Shown here piece after piece: positions 6,283 to 64,000 of a stretch of 64,000 nt of DNA; the first letter of the stretch is position 1, and every line of letters starts with the position of its first letter. Under the pieces are notes generated by a model, which was given only the letters and a program-made list of their open reading frames with translations, was not told the DNA's origin and did not search any database. The stretch is from contig NZ_JATM01000001.1 in the NCBI RefSeq assembly GCF_002003665.1, positions 186,001-250,000 of the forward strand, in the 5' to 3' direction. Source of the stretch: Bombella intestini. GTDB lineage: Bacteria > Pseudomonadota > Alphaproteobacteria > Acetobacterales > Acetobacteraceae. Both the position numbers and the translations under genes were made by a program.

Positions 6283-8756
<2,474 letters not shown>

Positions 8757-8820
8757 TTATATAGTGAAGAGGGGGGGAAGGGGAAGCAGATTATGCGCTC
8801 CGCTTCCCATGAAAAATGGA

Positions 8821-9150
8821 TCAGGGATGCTGTGGTGTCTGCGGGGCGGCAGGAGTGGCCACATCAGCAGGCTGATTGACAGGCGGATGGGCCAGAATAT
8901 CACGGCCTGAACCCCCGCTAGAGGCTCCACGGTTCAGAACAGCCAGGCATAGGCAGAGAATCATGAAGATGGCAGCCAGCACAGCCGTACTGCGGGTCAG
9001 CAGGGTTGCTGTGCCACGGCCGGACATGAAGGAACCTAGCCCCTGACTGCTGCCAACGCCGAGACCACCGCCTTCGCTACGCTGGATCAGGATAACGCCG
9101 ATAAGGGCCAGGGCAACCAGAACAGTGAGGATAAGCAGAAATGTGGTCAT
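8821..9150 (-). CDS. secG: preprotein translocase subunit SecG
   Basis: Auxiliary SecYEG subunit with two membrane helices (about residues 3-22 and 53-72). The connecting loop has the family glycine-rich region IQRSEGGGLG and a SGRGTATLLTRST stretch. The tail is rich in Ala and Pro, as common in alphaproteobacteria. It lies 18 bp after tpiA on the same strand, a conserved pairing, and 73 bp before pyrG. Confidence 0.95.
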   Translation of the reverse strand: MTTFLLILTVLVALALIGVILIQRSEGGGLGVGSSQGLGSFMSGRGTATLLTRSTAVLAAIFMILCLCLAVLNRGASSGGSGRDILAHPPVNQPADVATPAAPQTPQHP

Positions 9151-9168
9151 GCAGTCAGGTCCAACAGG

Positions 9169-9963
9169 TTATGGGGAAGGCTGAGGCGCAGTTGCTTCAG
9201 CCGCAGCGCCAATGATGTCCAAGAAGCTTTGTGCCTCAAGGCTGGCACTGCCGACAAGCACCCCGTCCACTGCCTCGATGGACATGATGGAGGGAGCCTG
9301 AACGGAAGTTACAGACCCGCCATACAGGACCGGAACACGAATGTCATCCGTCATAAGCCTCATTGGTAGCAGGGCACGGATCAGCTGTAGCTTTCTCTGA
9401 AGCTCCTCCTGTGAAGGAGTGATGCCGCTACCAATGGCCCAGACAGGCTCATAAGCCAGAATTCCACGGAAGCCCCGTGTCAGTGAGCCTTCAATTTGGG
9501 TAGAAAGCACGCTGGCTGCCCGTCCTTCATTTCGCTCTGCCAGATGCTCGCCGATACAGACAATCGGCGTAATTCCGGCTGCTGTAGCTGCTTTAACTTT
9601 TTGGCGGATGATGGCATCGGTTTCGCCATGGTTCTGGCGTCGTTCCGAATGGCCGAGAATGACATAACGTGCCCCGAGGTCACGGATCATAGGGGCAGAA
9701 ATATCCCCAGTGAAGGGCCCGGAGGATGCTGGGTAACAGTCTTGCGCCCCCATGGCCAGTTGCTCATGCGGCAGACAGACCTCCCGCAACGCCTGATGGA
9801 CACCATCAAGCTGCGTGAAGGGGGGGCAGATAATAGTATGAAGGTGCGATGGCGGCGGTGTGTCCCGCATGGCGTGGGCGATGTCCCGTGCGAGCTGGAG
9901 GCCGTGCTCGTGGCGAGCCTGCATTTTCCAGTTCCCAATGACAAATTTGGGTACGGTGCTCAT
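9169..9963 (-). CDS. tpiA: triose-phosphate isomerase
   Basis: Interconverts dihydroxyacetone phosphate and glyceraldehyde-3-phosphate. The TIM-barrel signatures are intact: VIGNWKM with the catalytic Lys, VILGHSERR with the catalytic His, AYEPVWAIGSG with the catalytic Glu, and VLYGGSV for phosphate binding. The frame is open upstream to 10002, but the ATG at 9963 has GGGGAGAG five bases upstream and gives the normal N-terminus, about 264 residues. Confidence 0.97.
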   Translation of the reverse strand: MSTVPKFVIGNWKMQARHEHGLQLARDIAHAMRDTPPPSHLHTIICPPFTQLDGVHQALREVCLPHEQLAMGAQDCYPASSGPFTGDISAPMIRDLGARYVILGHSERRQNHGETDAIIRQKVKAATAAGITPIVCIGEHLAERNEGRAASVLSTQIEGSLTRGFRGILAYEPVWAIGSGITPSQEELQRKLQLIRALLPMRLMTDDIRVPVLYGGSVTSVQAPSIMSIEAVDGVLVGSASLEAQSFLDIIGAAAEATAPQPSP

Positions 9964-10121
9964 TCTGCTCTCCCCGGTCGGCACGATGTATCCACTGCAC
10001 ATGGGCAGAGAAGGGACACGCCGTGCTGGTCAATCTGTGTCGGCATCTCTATGCTGGGGCAGCTTAGCGGGTTTTCTCGGCTAATGCTATTCTGCCATCA
10101 GTAAAGTGATATGCGTCTTCG

Positions 10122-33496: not shown

Positions 33497-36418
<2,922 letters not shown>

Positions 36419-36468
36419 GCACTTTGCTCCACGATGTTGCAGTGTCGTCTGGAAAAGGGGGCCGCCGT

Positions 36469-37911
36469 TCAGTCGTCCGCCCTGAGATGACTGTGCCGTA
36501 TGCTATAAGTGAAATAAATGATGGCACCAATGGCTAACCAGAGAATTAGGCGTCCCCATGTGATGAGGCTCATGGAGAGCATGACGCTGCCGCAAGAAAT
36601 AATGCCCAAAGATGGAATAAGCAGAGGGCCACCTGGCAGGCGGAAAGTACGGGGAGCATCGGGCGCTGTGAAGCGCAGGGCAATGACGCCTGCGCAGACG
36701 ATTACGAAGGCCGTTAGTGTGCCGATGGAGGCCATATTGGCCAGAATATCAATAGGCAGGCAGCAGGCCAGTAGACCGCTTGCAAGGAAGCTGAGCATAT
36801 GGCTCGGGACTGGCGTGTGGCTCTTGGGGTGCATCCGGCGGAAAAAGGCAGGTAGCAGGCCATCTTGAGACATGCTCATTAGAATACGGCTCTGCCCCAT
36901 CAGTAGGCCGTAAACGACCGAGACATACCCCAGACAGATACCCCCTTTGATGAGCAAGCTGAGCCACGGCAGATTGACGACATCCATGACGGTAGCAACC
37001 GGGCTCGGATCATGCGCAAAATGGTGATAATCCACCACGCCAACCAACACGGCAGACACGACAACATAGACGATGGCACAGATGATCTGACTGCCCAGAA
37101 TGGCAATAGGCATCGATCGCTGAGGGTTTTTTGTATCGTGAGCTGCCGTAGAGACGATATCGAAGCCGATATAGGCCAGAAAGGCCATTCCCGCCGCCCG
37201 CATGACGCCACTAAAACCGAACTCCCCGTAATGACCTTCATTGGGGGGGATGAAGGGGTGGAAATGGGCCATCTGAATGTGCGGAAGACAAGCCACGACC
37301 AGACCGACCAGCACGCAGACCTTGATACCGACAATAAGGCCGTTCATCCGGGAAGATTCTTTTGTGCCCCGTGTCAGCATGGTGGTGACGAGCCAGAGAA
37401 TAAACAGACAAGGCGCATTAAACCATGCATGGGCCATATGACCGTCAGGCAGTTCTACCAGTGTCATGGGCGGGTGTAATAGCCTCGGGTCTATGACGAT
37501 GCCCCAATCCTTGAGGAAAGAGGTCATATAACCGGACCAACTGGAAGCCACGGCAGCCGTGCTAACAGTATATTCAAGGATCAGATCCCAGCCGATGACC
37601 CACGCTACAAACTCACCTAAGGCAGCGTAGGCGTAGGAATAGGCCGACCCTCCAGAAGGGATCATCCCAGCCAGTTCAGCATAGCAGAGACCAGCAAAGC
37701 TGGCGGCTATGGCAGCAATGAGGAAAGCAAGAGGAATGGCTGGACCGGCATAGAGGCCGGAGGCCACACCTGTAAGGGAGAAGAGACCGGCCCCAATGGT
37801 CACGCCTACACCGATGGCAATAAGCTGCCATGTGCCGAAAATGCGTTTCAGCCCCGTTTGGGTAGAAGTTGAGGAGGTGATGGCTTTCTTGCGCCAGAGG
37901 GATGACATCAT
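36469..37911 (-). CDS. APC-superfamily amino acid permease (second of tandem array)
   Basis: Also 480 residues, with GVGVTIGAGLFSLTGVASG, CYAELAGMIPSGGSAYSYAY and LAYIGFDIVSTAAHD. It aligns along its whole length with both neighbours, including the external loop between helices 3 and 4 with a PDGH motif. Start ATG at 37911 or the adjacent ATG at 37908; neither has a clear ribosome binding site. Confidence 0.92.
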   Translation of the reverse strand: MMSSLWRKKAITSSTSTQTGLKRIFGTWQLIAIGVGVTIGAGLFSLTGVASGLYAGPAIPLAFLIAAIAASFAGLCYAELAGMIPSGGSAYSYAYAALGEFVAWVIGWDLILEYTVSTAAVASSWSGYMTSFLKDWGIVIDPRLLHPPMTLVELPDGHMAHAWFNAPCLFILWLVTTMLTRGTKESSRMNGLIVGIKVCVLVGLVVACLPHIQMAHFHPFIPPNEGHYGEFGFSGVMRAAGMAFLAYIGFDIVSTAAHDTKNPQRSMPIAILGSQIICAIVYVVVSAVLVGVVDYHHFAHDPSPVATVMDVVNLPWLSLLIKGGICLGYVSVVYGLLMGQSRILMSMSQDGLLPAFFRRMHPKSHTPVPSHMLSFLASGLLACCLPIDILANMASIGTLTAFVIVCAGVIALRFTAPDAPRTFRLPGGPLLIPSLGIISCGSVMLSMSLITWGRLILWLAIGAIIYFTYSIRHSHLRADD

Positions 37912-38042
37912 GGTGAAGAAGATTCCATGTCAGGTCGGTTCTGATCTGTTCTGGTTGTTATTTCAGACAGAGGCGGCACCCTAAGAGGGCATCACATCTA
38001 TAGTGAGCCCTCTTCTATGGAATAATATTATAAATTTCTACC

Positions 38043-39491
38043 CTAATTGATAGAGTTATTGCGTAACCGGCTTTTTCTGATGCCATAAGCGAAATAGACA
38101 CAGAACCCTAGAACCAACCAGACCAGTAGGCGGACCCATGTTAGACCGCTCATGGACCCCATAACGATGCCGCAGGAGATAATGCCCAGCAGGGGAACCA
38201 CAAACGGCCCACCCGGTACACGGAAACTACGTGGTGCATCCGGGGCCCGGAGACGTAGAGCCGTAACGCCAGCCGAGACGATGACGAAGGCTAGTAGCGT
38301 TCCAATGGAGGTCATTTCTCCCAGAGTAGCGATGGGGACGCAGCCGGCCAGCAAAGCAGCAGCCACGGCGGTGACGATGTGTGCCGTCCATGGGGTGCGG
38401 GTACCCTCATGAAGGCGGGCAATGAAGGAGGGAAGCAACCCGTCTTCAGCCATGTTCATAGCAATGCGGCTTTGTCCGATGAGCAAACCAAACAGGACGG
38501 AGATAAAGCCAAACGTAATGCCGATTTTCACCAGAACCGCCATCCAAGGCATATTGATCTTGTCCATGGCTGTGGCAACGGGGCTGGGGTCATGGGCGAG
38601 GGTGTGATAGTCCACCACGCCAACAAGAATGGTGGAAAAGACGACATAGATAACGGCACAGGTCAGCAGGCTGCCCAGAATGCCAATCGGCATGTTACGC
38701 TGGGGATTTTTTGTGTCTTGCGCCGCTGTGGAGACAATATCAATACCGACGTAGGCAAAGAAGGCCATCCCGGCGGCACGCATGATCCCGCTGATACCAA
38801 ACTGCCCGAATTCTCCCGTATTAGCAGGGATGAAGGGGTGGAAGTGGCTGGTATCAACAAAAGGCGTGCAGACGATGATCAAGCCGGCAATGACAAGAAT
38901 CTTGATCAACACAACCAATGAGTTAAGACGAACGGAGAAGTTGGTCCCCCGCATCAGCATGAGGGTGATGATGAAGAGGAGGAGCATCCCCGGAGCATTG
39001 CACCATGCCTGCACTGTATGGCCATCTGGCATAGTGACGGTGGTTCCCGGTGGGTTGAGTAATCGTGGATCAATAATGATGTTCCATCCCTTGAGGAGGG
39101 AAGCGATATAACCTGAAGCGCTGGAAGCCACGGCAGCGGCCCCGACCGTATATTCAAGGATCAGGTCCCAGCCGATGATCCACGCTACAATCTCACCAAG
39201 TCCGGCATAAGCGTAGGCATAGGCCGAGCCACCGGCAGGCAGCATCCCGGCTAGCTCGGCATAGCAAAGCCCAGCAAAACTGGCCGCAATGGCTGCGATG
39301 AGGAAGGAGATAACCACTGCTGGCCCTGCATTTTGGCCAGCGGCAACACCCGTGAGGGAGAAAAGACCTGTCCCGACGGTAACACCAACGCCCATGGCGA
39401 TGAGACGCCACGGGCCGAACACACGTTTCAGCCCGTTATTTTGGCTCTCTGGAGGGGGAACTTGTTTGGTTTGCCAGAAGGGCAAGGTCAT
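38043..39491 (-). CDS. APC-superfamily amino acid permease (first of tandem array)
   Basis: About 482 residues, with GVGVTVGTGLFSLTGVAAG, CYAELAGMLPAGGSAYAYAY and FAYVGIDIVSTAAQD. It is promoter-proximal and divergent from glyA. The ATG at 39491 is favoured over 39509 because GAGAG lies upstream. Residue choice differs among the three copies mostly in the loop after helix 3 and in helix 5, where substrate preference may have diverged (inference). A 131-bp gap separates it from the second copy. Confidence 0.92.
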   Translation of the reverse strand: MTLPFWQTKQVPPPESQNNGLKRVFGPWRLIAMGVGVTVGTGLFSLTGVAAGQNAGPAVVISFLIAAIAASFAGLCYAELAGMLPAGGSAYAYAYAGLGEIVAWIIGWDLILEYTVGAAAVASSASGYIASLLKGWNIIIDPRLLNPPGTTVTMPDGHTVQAWCNAPGMLLLFIITLMLMRGTNFSVRLNSLVVLIKILVIAGLIIVCTPFVDTSHFHPFIPANTGEFGQFGISGIMRAAGMAFFAYVGIDIVSTAAQDTKNPQRNMPIGILGSLLTCAVIYVVFSTILVGVVDYHTLAHDPSPVATAMDKINMPWMAVLVKIGITFGFISVLFGLLIGQSRIAMNMAEDGLLPSFIARLHEGTRTPWTAHIVTAVAAALLAGCVPIATLGEMTSIGTLLAFVIVSAGVTALRLRAPDAPRSFRVPGGPFVVPLLGIISCGIVMGSMSGLTWVRLLVWLVLGFCVYFAYGIRKSRLRNNSIN

Positions 39492-39595
39492 TGAAGGACA
39501 CTCTCGCATTTTTTAAACGTAATTAACGTGCAACGATAGACGCGCTTGGCTCTCGCGCCTATAGAAAGAAAAGAGTTTTTTTGCGGGGAGTATGG

Positions 39596-46073: not shown

Positions 46074-46122
46074 ATTTATCACCGTGTCGCCACGCACTAC
46101 GCTGCAAATGATAGGAAGCTCC

Positions 46123-46623
46123 ATGGCGTTAAGCAAGATCACCGGAACCACAAATAAGATTTCAGGCGCATTGTCCCGGCTGCAGACGCTGGGAAAGGAA
46201 CCGCAGGAGTTTCTGGCGGCTCTCGGTCTGGAGATGGTGGACCGTACCAGGCAGCGTATTGATGATGGTGTAATGCCAGAGGGCACTCCCTTTGCTCCCC
46301 TCAATCCGTTATATGCGTCTGGTAAGCCGTCTGGTGACCCGATCCTGAAGAGGAGTGGCAGCCTGCGCAACGAGCTGACCTCTACCATTCAGGGAAACAG
46401 TCTTGTCTGGGGTTCAAACCGCATATATGCGGCAGTGCATCAGTTCGGAGCGATCATTAAGCCGGTGAAAGCCCCCGCTCTTGTCTTCAGGATGGGCAGG
46501 GATCTGTTCAAACGACAGTCAGTCACCATCCCGGCCCGTCCTTATCTAGGGTTTAATCATGAAGACAGGCAGGCGGTAGTGGACACCTTGGAGACATTTT
46601 TCAGGCGGTGCATGGGCGGGTGA
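46123..46623 (+). CDS. phage virion morphogenesis protein (Mu gpG-like)
   Basis: About 166 residues matching the virion morphogenesis/tail-completion family: EMVDRTRQRIDDGVMPEGTPFAPLNP, LKRSGSLRNELTSTIQGNSLVWGSNRIYAAVHQFGAI in sections, and the end block IPARPYLGFN. AGGAAG precedes the ATG at 46123. It looks intact although it is isolated from a working head operon. Confidence 0.85.
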   Translation: MALSKITGTTNKISGALSRLQTLGKEPQEFLAALGLEMVDRTRQRIDDGVMPEGTPFAPLNPLYASGKPSGDPILKRSGSLRNELTSTIQGNSLVWGSNRIYAAVHQFGAIIKPVKAPALVFRMGRDLFKRQSVTIPARPYLGFNHEDRQAVVDTLETFFRRCMGG

Positions 46624-46818
46624 CGCTATTCACATCCCCACACTGTTTTTTTAAACAGCAATTAAACAACGTTAAACAGGGTTGTGGGCGTTCTGTGGCC
46701 TATTGTGGGTGGATTGGTGCGGCCAGTATGGTAAGGCCCATGTGCAGGCAAATATGAGGGTTCCCATTTTTCAGCCCTTAAACCCTGTTCCGGGGTAAAG
46801 GTTTGAACCCTGAAAGAA

Positions 46819-47085
46819 ATGCCCTGGCCCGGCCATCTTGGTGGCGTGAGTGAATTAGCCTACATGCCGCTGTCTGCTGGGTCATTCAAGGCCGCAGGCG
46901 GTAAGAAGACCTATCATGTAGTGAACCCAGATTCTGTCATAAAGGCATCTCTGGAATCCGGCAAAATCGTTCTGGATGAGAACCATAGCACTGATCTCAG
47001 TGCCCGAATTGGTCATCCGTCTCCAGCAGCGGGCTGGATCATGGAAATGGAAAGTCGGGCTGACGGAAGGTGGCCGGTGAGGAAT
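46819..47085 (+). pseudogene. N-terminal part of a Mu gpI-like prohead protease/scaffold protein
   Basis: The frame has VLDENHSTDLSARIGHPSPA followed by AGWI, matching the Mu I protein region with an acidic-His motif and the PAAGW signature. Family similarity ends at ADGRWPV near 47080, after which the sequence belongs to another fragment; the formal open frame runs to 47457 but overlaps minus-strand coding DNA. There is a 195-bp noncoding gap upstream holding a CTGTTT / AAACAG hairpin. Confidence 0.6.
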
Positions 47086-47567
47086 GGAGTGATATCCCTG
47101 TTCATTGGCAATTCGGGTTCAATTCCTATGCTCCGGTGGATAGGGCTGTGCCTCATGCGATTCAGAATGGGCGTGTGTCGGCCATTGATGCGACAGAGGG
47201 TATGGTCATCAACCAGAAAGACAAGTCCATCCACAGAGAGGGCGGCATCACGCTCCCTAGTTTGCTTCCCAGCGAGAATACCTTCCAGAGAGGCTGCTTC
47301 ATCACTAGCTACGATGCGGCGGCGCAGTTCGGCCCGGACGATGAGGTTTTTCTTGCGGGCATTAGCCTCGATGATACCGGCCAGACGTTCCTCATCGGCC
47401 ATGCGGGCACCGGCTTTCTCCAGTGCTTCCCGTGGGGACAGGCCTTGTTTCATGTAGCGTCCGGCTTCTTTCTCCAGCCGCCCGAACATCTCATCAAGTT
47501 CTGCCTTGGACATTTCACGGCCAGCGGCTTTCTCTGCCTCGTTGTAGCAGGGGTTCTCATGGGTCAT
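47013..47567 (-). CDS. phage protein, C-terminus altered at a recombination joint
   Basis: A 184-residue minus-strand frame coupled by ATGA to the end of the polyvalent gene. The first roughly 115 residues look authentic (KAAGREMSKAELDEMFGRLE; SLEGILAGKQTRERDAALSVD), resembling helical segments associated with phage polyvalent proteins. Past about 47200 the frame reads across the joint into gpI-side DNA, so the last third is not original. Confidence 0.5.
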   Translation of the reverse strand: MTHENPCYNEAEKAAGREMSKAELDEMFGRLEKEAGRYMKQGLSPREALEKAGARMADEERLAGIIEANARKKNLIVRAELRRRIVASDEAASLEGILAGKQTRERDAALSVDGLVFLVDDHTLCRINGRHTPILNRMRHSPIHRSIGIEPELPMNRDITPFLTGHLPSARLSISMIQPAAGDG

Positions 47568-50338
47568 GGGGCTTTCCTTGTTAGGCAGGCAGCAGCGGAG
47601 GTAAGGGCATCTACATTGCCATCGGAGAAGGTTTTCTCACGTTGGACCTCTGCCAGTTCTTCAGGGCTTATCTGATCTCCTAGGGCGGCAAGCTGACGGT
47701 CTATCTGGTCGGAATAGGTTTGTGCTTCGATAATGGCTTGACTTTGGGAAGAGTGATTCCCATTATCCAGAATGTCGCTGTGACGGATACCGTCATCACG
47801 GCCATGCCCGTCAGCCTTTGGAGGCATGGGTCCGGTGGGTCCGGCATCTCTGCTGTGGGGATGCGGTGGGGTGTGGTCCCCACTAAGCAGCGATTTTCCT
47901 TCGATGTATTTTCTCTCAAACATTCCTGCCGTGGCAATGCGGTAATAACCATCCTCTTTCATGAGATGGAGGACAGCCACTTTGTGCAGGCTTTTTTCGT
48001 CGGTATTTCCCCCCCATATTGGCGATAACGTAAGAGCCGGTGGAGTTATTCCGTTTGGGACGGTCCTGCCTTATTTCTGTTGCGTTCCCTAGAACATGCC
48101 GAACAAAGTCATCAACACTGGTGAAACCAAGCGCTCTTATCTCGTTTCCATGTCTGGCTTCGATATGAAGTCTTCCATGACCCCCACCAATATCTATGCC
48201 TTCCTTGTTAAGCCTGACGGTATGCTTCCCATCGGCAATGATAGTTGGCCACGCTGGCGTATCTTTCATGCCAGCTGGCATATGCCAAATCATATCAGGA
48301 TGATTCCCAGCCGCCGACAGATCAAGATGCTCAATGCCGCCAGTTGGGAGTGGGGAAACGTCCTGTCCTGTTTCCGGGCTGGGAGCGGCCTCTTTATGGG
48401 CAGATAGGCCTGCACGGCTCTGCGTTACTTCATGGTCTTCATACCCATGCAGGTTCCGCATGATGGCTTCGGCTGCACCCTGTTGCAGCTCATCGAGACG
48501 CTGATGCGCTGCCTGATAGGCTTCCTGCACAGTTTCCTGCCAGGAAGAAGCATCATGGCCTTTTCCTTTGCCATTCTCGATGAGACGTAGGGCGTGTTCT
48601 ACGGCGTCATCTGAACTATCATGTTTCAGAATTGATTCGGCCAGATCGTATAGGCTGAGATTATCAATGTCAGAATCAAGATGTTTGGCATAAAGACCAA
48701 GACGCTGGCGGGCGATAGAATGAAGGAGCATCTGCTTTGTGCCGATGCGCTCCATATGGAATGCCCTGCCTTCATCCATCATGTCGGCATAGCGGTCCCA
48801 TGTGGAATGACGATGGGACATCATCGCTTCTTCTATGGCGGCATCTGGATGAATACCAGAGAGGATGGCTTCAATAGCGTGTCTATGTTCTTCTGGTGTC
48901 AGTGATATGCCAGCGTTGTAAGAGGCTTCATCGGCATCATCAGCGGCAATCTCACGGTAGTGGTCATCTAATGCAGCGAAGTCACGTTCTTTTTCAAAAA
49001 TCTGCCCATCGGGGAACACCTTCCGACCGTGGCTTTCTTCGACCATTGCATTTATCAGGTCGTTTATGTCGGCATCAGGCTTTAAGTAGCCATGCTGAAT
49101 GGCTAGGCTTCGAGCATCATCCAGCGGCATACCCCCACGGCGTCTGATAAGCCCGATGCGCTGGCGATGGATGTCTTGTCCTCTTAGGTCTCCACCTTGG
49201 TCAATCACCCCGCCATAACGGTTAAGAAAAGTAAAAAGTGATGGAGGGTTTTTAGTTTTTTTGATCCTTACTGGTTCAGCAGATACGACATTATTTTGTG
49301 TATCGTTTGGCTTTTCATAAAGCGCAGACTCATCAAGCGTTTCAGCATGGCTTTTTTTGATGTCGGAGAGGTCCGAGGATATCCTATCACGCAGGGGAGG
49401 GTATTGTTGTGCCTCGGGCGCACCGTCTTCGTTTCCCTCAGAAGCAGAAGAATTTTCATCACTACCGGTACCGATGTCGGGCGTATCGCCATGCTCTGAC
49501 ATGGCACGGTCAAGGTCTTCTCTAGTCTTCTGTACTTCATGGATGTTTAGCAGGCTTTCGGCATTGCTAGGGCTGTCGCTAGCCATTGATGACATGCCAT
49601 CAGCCAGAACCTGCCCCTTGGCATCGGTGCCTGCACGGTCCAGACGCTTCCCGAGCGCATAGCCAAGACCATGCAGAGAACCGCCCATGAAACCACCAAA
49701 GGCGATGTTCCCCAGAGCCTGCCCCATGCTCCAATCGTTATGTTCGTCACGATCAAGATAGAAATTAAGCGGTTCCAAAGCCGCCATGCCAGCAGCACCT
49801 TGACTAGCACCTTGGATCACACGACCAGGAAGATTGCTGGATAAAGCTGCCCCGACACGGCGATTTAGCCCTTCGGCACTGAGAAGACCATCAGCCACAC
49901 TCTCTAGGCCAAAGCCCTCGGCACGGGCAGCGGCACGGCCTAAAACCATGGCGATGCGGCTTTCACCTAGGCCGGGAATAAAGGCCGCAGCATAATTTAT
50001 GGGGTCCAGAAAGGAAGGAGCCGCACCGGCAACTGCTGTTAATGTGCGATTGATGACACCACCAGGACCGTTCCGAATGGTGTTCTGCCTGATGAGTTGC
50101 TGTTGTTTATCCTCATTGAGGGTCTGGGCAACCGAGGAAGAAATAGGCTTGTCGAAATTGAGAACATCCGTGATGCCATAGCGGGCATTGGCATCTTCTG
50201 GAGTTAGAATATCTCCTTCGCTTCCCTCATTCTTACGCTGTAGCCAGCTCCCAATGCGAATGGTGGGCATGTCATTGATGCCATCAACAATGGAAGCACC
50301 TAAAGACTGGTCAAAAGATGACTGAATGGTTGAGGCGT
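47564..50338 (-). pseudogene. phage polyvalent protein with C-terminal PBECR-like nuclease domain, frameshifted and 5'-truncated
   Basis: The largest piece (ATG at 50270) encodes 784 residues; the frame is open and looks coding for a further 22 codons upstream to a stop at about 50338, so the true N-terminus is lost. The N-terminal third has hydrophobic Gly/Ala-rich segments as in phage internal/ejection proteins; the middle is acidic and helical. The end (IEARHGNEIRALGFTSVDDF, then VAVLHLMKEDGYYRIATAG) matches the phage Barnase-EndoU-ColicinE5/D-RelE-like (PBECR) type. A G7 tract (plus-strand C7, 48009-48015) breaks this domain: one more G restores a continuous frame into the 138-residue piece ending at 47564. 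Confidence 0.65.
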
Positions 50339-59067: not shown

Positions 59068-61344
59068 TTAATTCCCCAACTCCACATCAACACTGATGCT
59101 CGTTATGGTCGCAGGCAACGGCTGGTCTGTTTGGAGGATGAATCTGCCCTTCTGTGTCCAGTTTGGCGTGGTTATCCGCATGGTCAGGCCGGAGATGAGC
59201 GTAGGGCCGGTGTCTTTCTTTTGGTAGGGATTGGGAGCTGATGGGCCAGCAGCGGCCCCCTGATTGTCCAGATCATGGAATGTCTGGCCCTCATTGGTGG
59301 AAACACTTAAGCTAGACGTGTTGTAGAGCGAGGCATAAACCTTGCTGATGCGCTTGCGTCGGGCAAACTGCGGTGGGTTCCCTAGATCCAACGGGAGGGT
59401 GACGGCCCGTGCATGGATGGGCAGTCCTACCGTAACCACGCTACCGGAACGGGGCAGGGCGAGGGTGCCATCATTACCCACCATCAGCCCCGTGAAACCT
59501 CGGCCATCAATGCAGGCCGACACGCTGGCACCCGCCAGATGTCCTAGCCCTGAGACGGTGCTGGTCGGCTTTCCTTCATAGCGTAGGCCACAGTCCACGA
59601 ACCATGAGCGGGTAATGTCATCATTCTCTGCCCCCAGCTGGCGGGACTGGATGCGCTCTATCGTGTAGCTCTGTCGCCCTGCAATGGTGCGCTTAACCAC
59701 GACATAGGGCGTATCTTCAATGGCCCCGTATCCATTCTCCTCTGGCACGACTGCAACCGACTGGAAGGCCCCGCCCTCCGTCTTGTGCTGGTGCCAGGCC
59801 ATGACGTTTTGCTCTTTTAAATATGTCATGCTGAGCATGGCGCCATCCGATCGAACAGCCCAGATTAGGTTGAAAGGGAATTGAGCAAAGGACCAGTCTG
59901 ATATCGTGTAGCCATAGAAGAGATGGTCAGCCAGGACGGAGAGGTCATTGCCCTGATAGATCTGTGCGTACCAGTCATATTGCAGGTCACGGATATGGCT
60001 TCCCTTGTTTTCGATGAACAGCACGTCAGTATTGATGGGCAGCGGCTGGACATCTGAGCTGCCAACGAACATCTGCGGTATGGCGGTGAAATTGCTTGGT
60101 GTTATGGGAGTGCCAGTTTGGCCGCCGGAGATCTTCCAGATGCCCGTTCCGGTAAAAGCCAGAAGGTCCGCCATCGGCACTAGATGCTTGATGGTGTTGA
60201 CCTGCTGGCTGGCAATGGTAGCCGTTATGGCATCATCGGAGACGACCGGCGTGTGAATGTCGAAATTGGTATAGTTAGCCGAGCGGCTCATCCATACCGT
60301 CTGGGGATAGGCGAGAGACCCGGCAAAGACCCGCCTTTGCTGGAAATAGGTGACGGAAACCGGGTTGTTATTGCCATCAAAGGGGTTGCGATGGGCGGGC
60401 GGCCCGTTCTCGGTATCAGGAGCGTAATTCACATCGTCAAAGCTGAGGGACGTGGTGTTGCCGATCAGCCCCCACTGGCCTGCAAATCTACGATAGACGT
60501 TGTAATAATCAGCCCCAGACACGGCAGGCCATGAGAGCGTGTTATAGTTCCCGTAGTTCGTGTAGTAGCCGATATTGTAATTCGTCACGAACCGCCCGAC
60601 CTCGACCGGGACCTGGGACGTGACTGTGCTTGTCTTGCCAGTCAAAGGGTCTGTGATCGTCTGTGTCTGGGTAGTCATCTCCGTCTGGGATGGGGCCAGC
60701 GTGGCGTTGCTCTCCGTGTTCTTCTCATTGGAGACGGATGTGACGGCATATTCATACGTCACCTTTGATACGCCCGGTGTCGTTCCCGTATTGGCGGCGT
60801 TTCCTTCCACAGCAGAGGCCGCAAGTGAAGAAGGGGCATCAATGCCAGAGCTGTATGAGATGACATCAAGCGTCCAGTCAACTTCCCCACGGCGGGATAG
60901 GTTCATGGCGGGATAGCTGGAATGGGTCAGGGTCATCACGTCAGCAGACTGGGCATGGCGCAACCAGAAGGCATCCGCAATGCTGTAAGGCGTGGCAAGC
61001 TCGTAGGGGCTGCCATCAGCATTGGCAAGATAAGCCCCGTTGCTGATGAAGCGGAGATAGTGGTCGCCAAACTCCAGCACATATGACTGACTGTTGTTGT
61101 AGATGAAAGCGATAAGTTTCGGTGGCGGACCAGAAGAATTGGCCTTTGACGTGCCGATATACTGTGTACCAGGGCGGTTTGAGATACCGCCCTGCACATG
61201 CACGAAAAAGTTGGTCAGTTCAGCAGCACCGGAGTGCCATTTCTCCATGTCGGACCGATAGCCAATCAGGGGAGCCATGATGCCCCCGCTGAAAGAGCTG
61301 TACCATGTCAGCCCGACATTAGGGCCAGAAGGAGCCTGAGCCAT
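59068..61344 (-). CDS. phage tail protein (tail-tubular-B / stabilisation-like)
   Basis: A 758-residue structural protein. The N-terminus (GGIMAPLIGYRSDMEKWHSG) followed by FFVHVQGGISNRPGTQYIG is typical of the podovirus-type tail tube or stabilisation proteins related to T7 gp12, as is the beta-rich body with YNVYRRFAGQWGLIG and PVSVTYFQQRRVFAG blocks. It probably joins the portal-proximal tail to the fibres. Confidence 0.78.
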   Translation of the reverse strand: MAQAPSGPNVGLTWYSSFSGGIMAPLIGYRSDMEKWHSGAAELTNFFVHVQGGISNRPGTQYIGTSKANSSGPPPKLIAFIYNNSQSYVLEFGDHYLRFISNGAYLANADGSPYELATPYSIADAFWLRHAQSADVMTLTHSSYPAMNLSRRGEVDWTLDVISYSSGIDAPSSLAASAVEGNAANTGTTPGVSKVTYEYAVTSVSNEKNTESNATLAPSQTEMTTQTQTITDPLTGKTSTVTSQVPVEVGRFVTNYNIGYYTNYGNYNTLSWPAVSGADYYNVYRRFAGQWGLIGNTTSLSFDDVNYAPDTENGPPAHRNPFDGNNNPVSVTYFQQRRVFAGSLAYPQTVWMSRSANYTNFDIHTPVVSDDAITATIASQQVNTIKHLVPMADLLAFTGTGIWKISGGQTGTPITPSNFTAIPQMFVGSSDVQPLPINTDVLFIENKGSHIRDLQYDWYAQIYQGNDLSVLADHLFYGYTISDWSFAQFPFNLIWAVRSDGAMLSMTYLKEQNVMAWHQHKTEGGAFQSVAVVPEENGYGAIEDTPYVVVKRTIAGRQSYTIERIQSRQLGAENDDITRSWFVDCGLRYEGKPTSTVSGLGHLAGASVSACIDGRGFTGLMVGNDGTLALPRSGSVVTVGLPIHARAVTLPLDLGNPPQFARRKRISKVYASLYNTSSLSVSTNEGQTFHDLDNQGAAAGPSAPNPYQKKDTGPTLISGLTMRITTPNWTQKGRFILQTDQPLPATITSISVDVELGN

Positions 61345-61356
61345 AACGGAAAATCC

Positions 61357-61800
61357 TTAAGCAGTCGGATCAGTCGGAGCTGTGGGCAATGTGGTGCTAG
61401 TGGTGTCCGTTCCGTTAATGATGGCGTTGAGTGCCCGCATATAGCCCTGCATCTGTGGCCCGAATGTCTGTCCCATCATCTGGAGGTTGGTAAACTGCTG
61501 ACGTGCCTGCTGAAACGCCGTTTGAGCCTGTTCCTTCAGAGGAACAACCGGCGGCGGGGCTGCCGTTAGGCTGCCTTTTTCATCGACCTGCCAGCTCTGC
61601 TGCCAACGGGCAGCGTTGTTCCACCAGGCAGCGTCCTTGTCTGGCAGAGGAATCAGTGTGAAGCGTGGGTCAGCAGGTGGTGGCTCTGTCGTGACCTGCT
61701 GGGTACCATCAGCATTATTGACGGTTTTCTGACGGTCATAATCCCATCCGATGACGGAGGCAGGGAAGGATGAACCAGAAGAAATGGCGGCGTAATACAT
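61357..61800 (-). CDS. phage tail-region protein of unknown function
   Basis: A 147-residue protein with a beta-rich N-terminus (FPASVIGWDYDRQ; FTLIPLPDKDAAWWNNAARW) and a helical Gln-rich C-terminus (AFQQARQQFTNLQMM). Its placement between a fibre-like gene and the tail tube suggests a chaperone or adaptor. No family is certain. Confidence 0.6.
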   Translation of the reverse strand: MYYAAISSGSSFPASVIGWDYDRQKTVNNADGTQQVTTEPPPADPRFTLIPLPDKDAAWWNNAARWQQSWQVDEKGSLTAAPPPVVPLKEQAQTAFQQARQQFTNLQMMGQTFGPQMQGYMRALNAIINGTDTTSTTLPTAPTDPTA

Positions 61801-61813
61801 GGAGATTTTCCTA

Positions 61814-62458
61814 TCAGACGGTAGAGGGCGCAGGGCCGATAGCCAGTAAGTCGATGCGGAAGTTCACATTCTCCCAGTTACGGGCAATCAGATCGTAACA
61901 GGAGAGACGGCAACCGTAGCGTGTGGCTGGCTCCAGCAGCTCAACGCACCTGAAATGAGGGGTTCCGTTGATTGTTTCAGCGTAAGTCGAGATAAAAACC
62001 AGCACGTTATCCCCAGCGAACGGCACTGGAAATGATACTGTGGCCGGGTTCTGGCCTGCGATACTGAACCGCTGAATCATGAGAGGTCCGGCTTCACCCA
62101 CAATCTGCGCCACGGAGTTGCCGTTGGCGCAGAGGTAATTGCCCTTCTGGTTCGTGCCGAGTAGATGGGAATAGAGGGACGGATCAGTCCCGCCGGTTCC
62201 GCCATAGTCCAGACGTGGCGCACCTATTGCGCCAGCCCATTTCACCCCTACAGCCCTGAGATCGTTGGCTCCCAGCTGTAACGTGCCAGCCACCATCTGG
62301 GCCAGATCGGCAGTCGTTACCAGATTGTCGGGCAGGGTGACGGATGGGCCAGGAGGGGCATCGAAGTTATCATTGATGATGTTGCCGTTTTCGTCTTTCA
62401 CCACCAGGGTGACGGTGGACGGTTTGCCCGCAATAACGGAAGTCTGCTGAAGTTTCAT
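61814..62458 (-). CDS. phage tail fibre distal protein
   Basis: About 214 residues. It has a Pro/Gly-rich shaft-like part (VGVKWAGAIGAPRLDYGGTG) and a C-terminal beta domain with FPVPFAGDNVLVFIS, a pattern shared with receptor-binding fibre tips. The ATG at 62458 lies 2 bp after the stop of the GH32 gene upstream, so both are expressed together. Confidence 0.7.
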   Translation of the reverse strand: MKLQQTSVIAGKPSTVTLVVKDENGNIINDNFDAPPGPSVTLPDNLVTTADLAQMVAGTLQLGANDLRAVGVKWAGAIGAPRLDYGGTGGTDPSLYSHLLGTNQKGNYLCANGNSVAQIVGEAGPLMIQRFSIAGQNPATVSFPVPFAGDNVLVFISTYAETINGTPHFRCVELLEPATRYGCRLSCYDLIARNWENVNFRIDLLAIGPAPSTV

Positions 62459-62459
62459 G

Positions 62460-64000
62460 TCAGTAACTCTGCTTGAAGTAGAGAAGTCTGGCTGTTCCAT
62501 TTCCCGAAACAGTCACGTCTGAAGAAAATGCGTCTTCTGGCGGGAAGAACAGGCTGGAGATGTACACCTCATCGTTGATGATGATTTCGATAGTGGAGAC
62601 ATCAACAATGATGGAGATGAAATACCGTGCCCGATTAGGCAGGGTTGCTACCTGATCGGCGTTCCAGATCGCCCATTTCTTCGTATCAGCTGTATCCAGA
62701 GGGCCGCCGCCGCTCTGGGCCCGTAACAGGGTGACGGTCCCGGCCTGCGGGTTCAGTGTCAGGGTTGTGCGGTTTTTGGGGCCGACACAGAAATTGATGC
62801 TGATGGCGTCTGGCCACGGGTCTGGCGCATCACGATACAACTGGAGATCAAGCCGCCATGAGACGCCCATATTCTGCACCGGAGGCTGCCACTGGCTCGT
62901 GCCAGAGCTGGACAGGGGCAGGGACAGGATAGCGTCCGTGAACTCGGCGTAGCAGTTCAGCTGGTCAGGCATGAACTGCATTCGCAAGCCCAGAGAGCCA
63001 TCTACGTCCTGAGCCAGAGAGAGCCGGGTTATCAGGGAATGGTTGCCGCCGAAGCCCTGCTGCGGAAGCTCCATATAATTCCAGTTGCCCATCCAGCCCC
63101 AGCAATAGGTGTTGCCTTCGTGCTGGCTGATCGCCTGAGCGTAATAGTCGCTACCCCAGTTTAGGCGTTTGGGCGTGGTGAAGTCAGGCTTAAAGGTCGT
63201 TCCATCCCAGTCACCGATCAGATAGGCCACGCTGGAGGCTGCCTGCCCATTCCACTGTTTGATGGAGAAGGCCAGAAGCCATTTTTCAGAACCGTCCGGG
63301 GCTTCCATGGGTACAAGGTCCGGCGTCTCAATCTGCTGCCAGTCGGAGAGATCAATCAGGGAGAGGAAGGACCAGTTTAGGCCGTCCGTAGAGCTGTAGA
63401 AGGCGATACCTCGACCGATGGTCAGCTTCATGACGAACCGACTACGGGCATCATCCCAGCTCACCCTTGGATCTCGGAAATCCATACCGGGAGCGTAAAC
63501 GATCGCACCAACGCCCGGATTTTCCAGCACGATACCGTGATAGACTGGGGCCAGACCGAGGGCCGGGGCGATCCAAAGGGAGACGCACTGAAGCGAGCTG
63601 GTGTCGCTGCCGGGAACTGAGATGTAGTAGAGGACGGCCCCAGCCCCATACCCCGCTGCATTGTGCTGGTCGATCAGGAATGAACCGCCCCAGAGTGCAG
63701 GATAGGGCAGGTTATCCAGATAGAACGGGCTGCGGTTGTTAATGAAGGTGACAAGGTCTGGCGTGATGATTTCCATCCATGTCTGCTGGTCACCACCCTG
63801 GCTGTCGGGGTTGCTCTGGGAGATGGAAAACCCCCTGTAAATCTGGTTTTTCTCATCCCACACTAGGCAAGAAGGGTCATTGAACCACGGCTTAACCCAG
63901 CGTTGCGGCTGTGTTTTCTCGAACGCAGCCACGTCAGCCGGAAATTTCCCGGCGTGCTGAGAGGCATACGCACGGGTGTGGTACGGGGTCGGTGCTGGAT
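62460..64000 (-). CDS. prophage GH32 (levanase/invertase-like) protein, 5'-truncated by window edge
   Basis: Glycoside hydrolase family 32 cleaves beta-fructosidic bonds (levan, inulin, sucrose). Counting from a GTG at 63932, the triad motifs are WFNDPS (nucleophile Asp19), FRDPRV (Asp154) and IETPDL (general acid Glu202, family EC/EPD motif). The C-terminal beta-sandwich block IIVDVSTIEIIINDEVYIS matches the GH32 C-domain. The frame continues upstream to the window end with a coding look (TPYHTRAYASQHAG), so an N-terminal attachment part probably exists. It is 2 bp from a fibre gene, so it is a phage gene and likely a fructan depolymerase. Confidence 0.82.
   Translation of the reverse strand, partial: PAPTPYHTRAYASQHAGKFPADVAAFEKTQPQRWVKPWFNDPSCLVWDEKNQIYRGFSISQSNPDSQGGDQQTWMEIITPDLVTFINNRSPFYLDNLPYPALWGGSFLIDQHNAAGYGAGAVLYYISVPGSDTSSLQCVSLWIAPALGLAPVYHGIVLENPGVGAIVYAPGMDFRDPRVSWDDARSRFVMKLTIGRGIAFYSSTDGLNWSFLSLIDLSDWQQIETPDLVPMEAPDGSEKWLLAFSIKQWNGQAASSVAYLIGDWDGTTFKPDFTTPKRLNWGSDYYAQAISQHEGNTYCWGWMGNWNYMELPQQGFGGNHSLITRLSLAQDVDGSLGLRMQFMPDQLNCYAEFTDAILSLPLSSSGTSQWQPPVQNMGVSWRLDLQLYRDAPDPWPDAISINFCVGPKNRTTLTLNPQAGTVTLLRAQSGGGPLDTADTKKWAIWNADQVATLPNRARYFISIIVDVSTIEIIINDEVYISSLFFPPEDAFSSDVTVSGNGTARLLYFKQSY

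Follow-up and report, generated by a model that had tools for sequence, protein, structure and literature searches.

A GH32 protein encoded between the adaptor and fibre-tip genes of a Bombella prophage, probably a virion-associated beta-fructosidase in a mobile tail cassette

By sequence-based methods, we analysed a stretch of 64,000 nucleotides (the window; contig C6, positions 186001-250000) within the 2.02 Mb genome of Bombella intestini. At its right edge, the following genes of a prophage tail module were found (window coordinates):

62460..64091 (L003:460-2091), minus strand: GH32 gene, a complete ORF of 543 aa with Pfam GH32N and GH32C domains and a matching fold
61814..62458, minus strand: fibre-tip gene, 214 aa from the ATG at 62458, kept after GH32 in related cassettes
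61357..61800, minus strand: gene for a presumed tail-fibre assembly protein, 147 aa, with homologues after the tip in related cassettes

The GH32 gene had previously been seen only as 62460..63998, running off the right edge; on the extended contig the ORF is complete, with its ATG at 64091, 91 bp beyond the window. Upstream and on the same strand, matches to tail-sheath, baseplate-hub and baseplate-J proteins are followed by a gene for a 207-aa phage protein (phrog_8212) and then, directly before GH32, by a gene for a 240-aa protein which we call the adaptor; its first ~150 residues match tail-fibre N-termini. These matches bear out the tail context that a sequence-only reading of the window had proposed. 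The GH32 start overlaps the end of the adaptor gene by 4 bp (ATGA), an arrangement seen in all six cassettes checked. By its position, the gene thus belongs to a tail and receptor-binding module, as expected for a virion-associated depolymerase.

On the other side, GH32 does adjoin the fibre-tip gene, but the gap of 2 bp given earlier has to be corrected: a longer tip ORF from 62500 is possible, while alignment makes the ATG at 62458, 1 bp past the GH32 stop codon, the most likely start. The C-terminal ~90 residues of the tip resemble a lectin-type fibre foot, with Gp53-like_C matches in four homologues, all of them sub-threshold. Foldseek matches of the tip to R-pyocin fibre ends and snail lectins were weak (all E above 0.001) and are a hint only, and its structure model was mostly of low confidence. 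The presumed assembly protein itself gave no match in Pfam or PHROGs; in L063 and L064, its homologues stand behind different fibre genes. A gene for a 758-aa phrog_376 tail protein (59068-61344) separates the assembly gene from a downstream lysozyme-type gene. Since the related prophages L006 and L027 lack it at that place, the Bombella prophage looks mosaic.

Capsid-like, protease-like, sheath, baseplate and endolysin genes were recognised in this prophage. No terminase was matched on contig C6, and as the only terminase match of the genome lies on contig C7, the copy is probably incomplete. Copies on contig C21 of Acetobacteraceae bacterium B3987 and on contig C10 of Saccharibacter may be more complete, because in each of them a terminase was matched on the GH32 strand, at a distance of about 31 kb from the enzyme gene. 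The surroundings hold several further features. A second prophage has left a remnant at 46084-50270 of the window, in which a neck-type protein (46084-46623) and pieces of virion structural proteins were recognised; the same flanking gene suggests that it may share its insertion site with the podovirus-like prophage of Bombella favorum (L026). Beyond the window, an endolysin-like gene (375 and 364 aa) and a gene for a 190-aa protein with a leader-like start are duplicated in tandem (L127:7400-11157, C6:271400-275157), and within it three similar genes for ~480-aa membrane transporters, amino-acid permease-like, stand in tandem at 34976-39509.

A chance assignment of the 543-aa protein to family GH32 is excluded. 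Glyco_hydro_32N was matched at residues 67-361 (E=3.4e-34, 119.2 bits against a curated cut-off of 22.1) and Glyco_hydro_32C at residues 439-533 (E=3.3e-8, 34.1 bits against 21.9). The N-terminal propeller and the C-terminal sandwich domain are accompanied by the Asp/Asp (RDP)/Glu triad of the family, at N-D72-P, R-D207-P and E255-T-P, the last reading E-T-P where most GH32s read E-C-P; all three catalytic motifs and the sandwich motif noted earlier were thus recovered. The AlphaFold2 model (mean pLDDT 78, pTM 0.84) matched GH32 crystal structures in Foldseek with a best E of 8e-32. Modelling against levanases had been suggested in the sequence-only reading, and the nearest solved structures were indeed the LevB1 endo-levanase and a levan fructotransferase, both levan-acting; LevB1 was also the closest by sequence (E 9.5e-32).

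Deviations from the family consensus raise the question of whether the tail proteins might be catalytically dead folds which only bind a fructose-containing receptor. Some secondary active-site motifs of the tail GH32s are non-canonical (NDPS/C/T, W-x-E for WGH, ETP for ECP), and a chromosomal relative, G149, reads NEPQN at the expected position of the nucleophile Asp. We consider loss of catalysis quite improbable, as the three catalytic acids are invariant across the aligned tail and cellular GH32s, down to 23-30% identity among the tail proteins. Values of dN/dS for the tail GH32s (~0.14 to 0.28, NG86) suggest that the protein is maintained, with the reservation that dS is high.

Relatives of the gene were then compared across genomes. 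A genome search with the single GH32 protein found none, and relatives were found when an alignment served as query. The recurring unit comprises the last ~60 residues of the adaptor, GH32, the tip and the assembly protein, and was found in prophages of Bombella, Saccharibacter and Neokomagataea on at least three virion backbones, two with myovirus baseplates and one podovirus-like:

type A myovirus: the Bombella prophage described here; IMG/VR L006; L027, B3987 contig C21
type B myovirus: L028, L074; Saccharibacter 17.LH.SD, B3987 contig C26 (in C26, no match to an assembly gene followed the tip)
podovirus-like: L026, Bombella favorum prophage

Remnant or variant cassettes occur in Neokomagataea anthophila (frameshifted), Bombella mellum, G103 and G099, so that the named carrier genomes are those of B. 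favorum, B. mellum, Acetobacteraceae bacterium B3987, Saccharibacter sp. 17.LH.SD and N. anthophila. In G099, which belongs to another genus, the GH32 chain ends in a collagen-like repeat; a second GH32 copy there (L066, oriented 8152-10084) is split by a frameshift, its C-terminal half lying in another frame.

The adaptor proved to be a hybrid, its N-terminal part tracking the type of virion and the final 60 residues tracking GH32. Between the Bombella prophage and L027, adaptors are 85% identical outside the last 60 residues and 40% identical within them. For L026 and L027, the adaptors are unrelated outside this segment and 87% identical within it, with 72% identity in GH32 and 69% in the tip. 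DNA identity switches about 180 bp before the GH32 start, marking a recombination joint. In several prophages with a homologous anchor and no GH32, long fibres and assembly proteins occupy the same place. These comparisons indicate that the cassette of enzyme and fibre tip has moved between unrelated phage types. The hybrid pattern is what would be expected if the C-terminus of the adaptor contacts the enzyme, a contact that we infer from the alignments. It had been supposed that the missing N-terminus of GH32 might hold a phage attachment domain; the completed chain contains no recognisable virion domain, and its N-terminus is a short conserved segment (L.D....QG....Y.P..H) with a low-confidence prediction. 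The last ~60 residues of the upstream adaptor would be a likelier attachment point than the GH32 N-terminus.

In the phylogeny, one group with 100/100 support united ten tail GH32s with two relatives encoded on chromosomes (G063 and G149); the host invertase, LevP and further bacterial GH32s fell outside it. Branches inside the tail group are long, so that the branching order within it, and where G099 and G063/G149 belong, is uncertain. The genes of G063 (L117) and G149 (L118) have no phage neighbours and are possibly domesticated prophage genes.

These results bear on two other origins of the gene. As for the first, it might be metabolic cargo (a moron) or a captured host invertase serving sugar use by the lysogen. 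PHROGs places the levanase family of this GH32 under moron/auxiliary genes, and the host lives on sugars and has a GH32 of its own. The latter (L004:6042-7940) starts with a Tat-like leader, MTVNRRMVLGSFLAAGALWG, and occurs in every one of the 11 genomes of its genus; it agrees with an extracellular invertase, exported via Tat, that has been described for Bombella (PMC9147383). Tail GH32, however, belongs to another clade and is transferred together with the tip and the adaptor C-terminus instead of being placed independently; the leader of a secreted bacterial invertase or levanase is absent, no signal peptide having been found by inspection and hydrophobicity, and the context is that of a prophage. 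We regard this origin as very unlikely. Insertion of a host gene beside the prophage was ruled out by gene order and phylogeny, so that neither this nor a Sec signal on a chain free of virion domains, the two outcomes named earlier as speaking against a phage depolymerase, was encountered.

As for the second, the protein might be a soluble levanase of LevP type, made late and released by lysis to clear fructan around the lysed cell outside the virion. Its closest phage relatives are indeed the Bacillus LevP-type enzymes, which were the credible GH32 matches in the phage collection; according to a review, LevP is no tailspike (PMC6966330), and release by lysis requires no signal peptide. In the three Bacillus neighbourhoods inspected, though, these are standalone accessory genes outside tail modules, while the gene described here is co-inherited in a cassette with adaptor, tip and assembly genes and falls in another clade, which makes a soluble enzyme unlikely.

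We therefore turned to the possible substrate. The sequence-only reading envisaged a phage digesting the fructan coat of its host. That the GH32 lies in the tail module and is probably virion-borne agrees with this; a levan coat made by the host does not. GH68 levansucrase was absent from the B. intestini genome, from 11 of 11 genomes of the genus and from seven of the eight genomes carrying tail GH32 (N. anthophila being the exception), while across the family the same search was positive for 30 of 299 genomes. Lacking a levansucrase gene, the host probably makes no levan. By homology, the enzyme would act on a beta-fructofuranosyl glycan with levan as its nearest counterpart, although such levan would probably not come from the host itself. 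A capsule with fructose branches, or fructans that other microbes produce, may be the target instead. A candidate for the former lies about 9 kb past the right side of the prophage and occurs in only part of the genomes of the genus:

L128:1521-7987 (C6:284521-290987): Kps-type capsule locus with Poly_export, two glycosyltransferases and two Capsule_synth genes

The tail-borne enzyme could then act on a beta-fructofuranosyl branch of a Kps-type capsule and not on levan. This would agree with the vicinity of the locus, the lack of levansucrase in the genus and the fructose-branched capsules reported for Escherichia coli K4 and Campylobacter jejuni HS1. Yet Capsule_synth was found in five of eight carriers against two of seven non-carriers examined, numbers too few for an association, three genomes (B. 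favorum, B3987 and N. anthophila) have the cassette and lack Capsule_synth, and the nearest structures are levan-acting. A capsule branch as target is thus possible, if rather doubtful. Because it is a sub-case of a virion-borne enzyme, the confidences given to the two overlap.

Taken together, gene position, cassette inheritance and the retained catalytic triad argue that the GH32 protein is a virion-associated beta-fructosidase of the host-recognition apparatus of the phage, a reading to which we assign a probability of roughly 0.7. In this apparatus, the N-terminal ~180 residues of the adaptor would dock to the virion and its C-terminal ~60 residues would hold the enzyme, possibly with the help of the short N-terminal segment of GH32. 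The tip would bind the cell surface, and the enzyme would strip fructosyl residues or cut fructan at the cell envelope, allowing the tail to reach its receptor. A more far-reaching version can be put forward tentatively: a GH32 propeller attached via a small adaptor beside a lectin-like tip, in a cassette that passes between myoviruses and podoviruses of acetic acid bacteria associated with insects and flowers, might defructosylate capsule and not levan, and so represent a new class of receptor-binding enzyme.

Levanases are counted among phage depolymerases in a review, hence phages are already known to encode this class of enzyme. The placement of GH32 in a tail cassette is another matter, as no earlier description was found in the open-access literature, searched by title and abstract, and in the collections searched. 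Two GH32 records from human-fecal 'Bacteriophage sp.' (L124 and L125) were inspected as precedent and rejected, their neighbours looking bacterial. If true, a GH32 carried on the virion would extend the known phage depolymerases by one enzyme family and by a mounting architecture, and bee-associated Acetobacteraceae would be predicted to bear a surface glycan that contains fructose; such a glycan was not found in the literature searched. As strains with hosts and prophages of this kind are in culture, the prediction is testable.

Several known systems share parts of this arrangement. LevP of Bacillus phage phiNIT1 and its SPO1-like relatives is likewise a phage-encoded, levanase-type GH32, with 26-32% identity over the matched part, but it is described as soluble (PMC6966330). 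The LevB1 endo-levanase of B. licheniformis (9h8i) and the levan fructotransferase of Arthrobacter (4fff) share fold and catalytic triad with the tail protein, of which they are the best matches; unlike it, they are bacterial and have no phage tail context, and identity in structural alignments is about 24%. The Bombella invertase is a GH32 of the same genome, set apart by its leader, its presence throughout the genus and its clade. In Klebsiella prophages, virion-associated depolymerases and SGNH esterase receptor-binding proteins (PMC13123978) also place an enzyme in the variable receptor-binding locus of temperate phages; there, beta-helix or SGNH domains form part of the fibre or spike proteins, whereas here GH32 is a separate chain between adaptor and tip. 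Finally, Alteromonas phages A5 and V22, according to the abstract (PMC10579305), have a fibre and chaperone module swapped between morphologically distinct phages, as proposed here for the cassette; the abstract reports no enzyme, whereas the module described here includes GH32.
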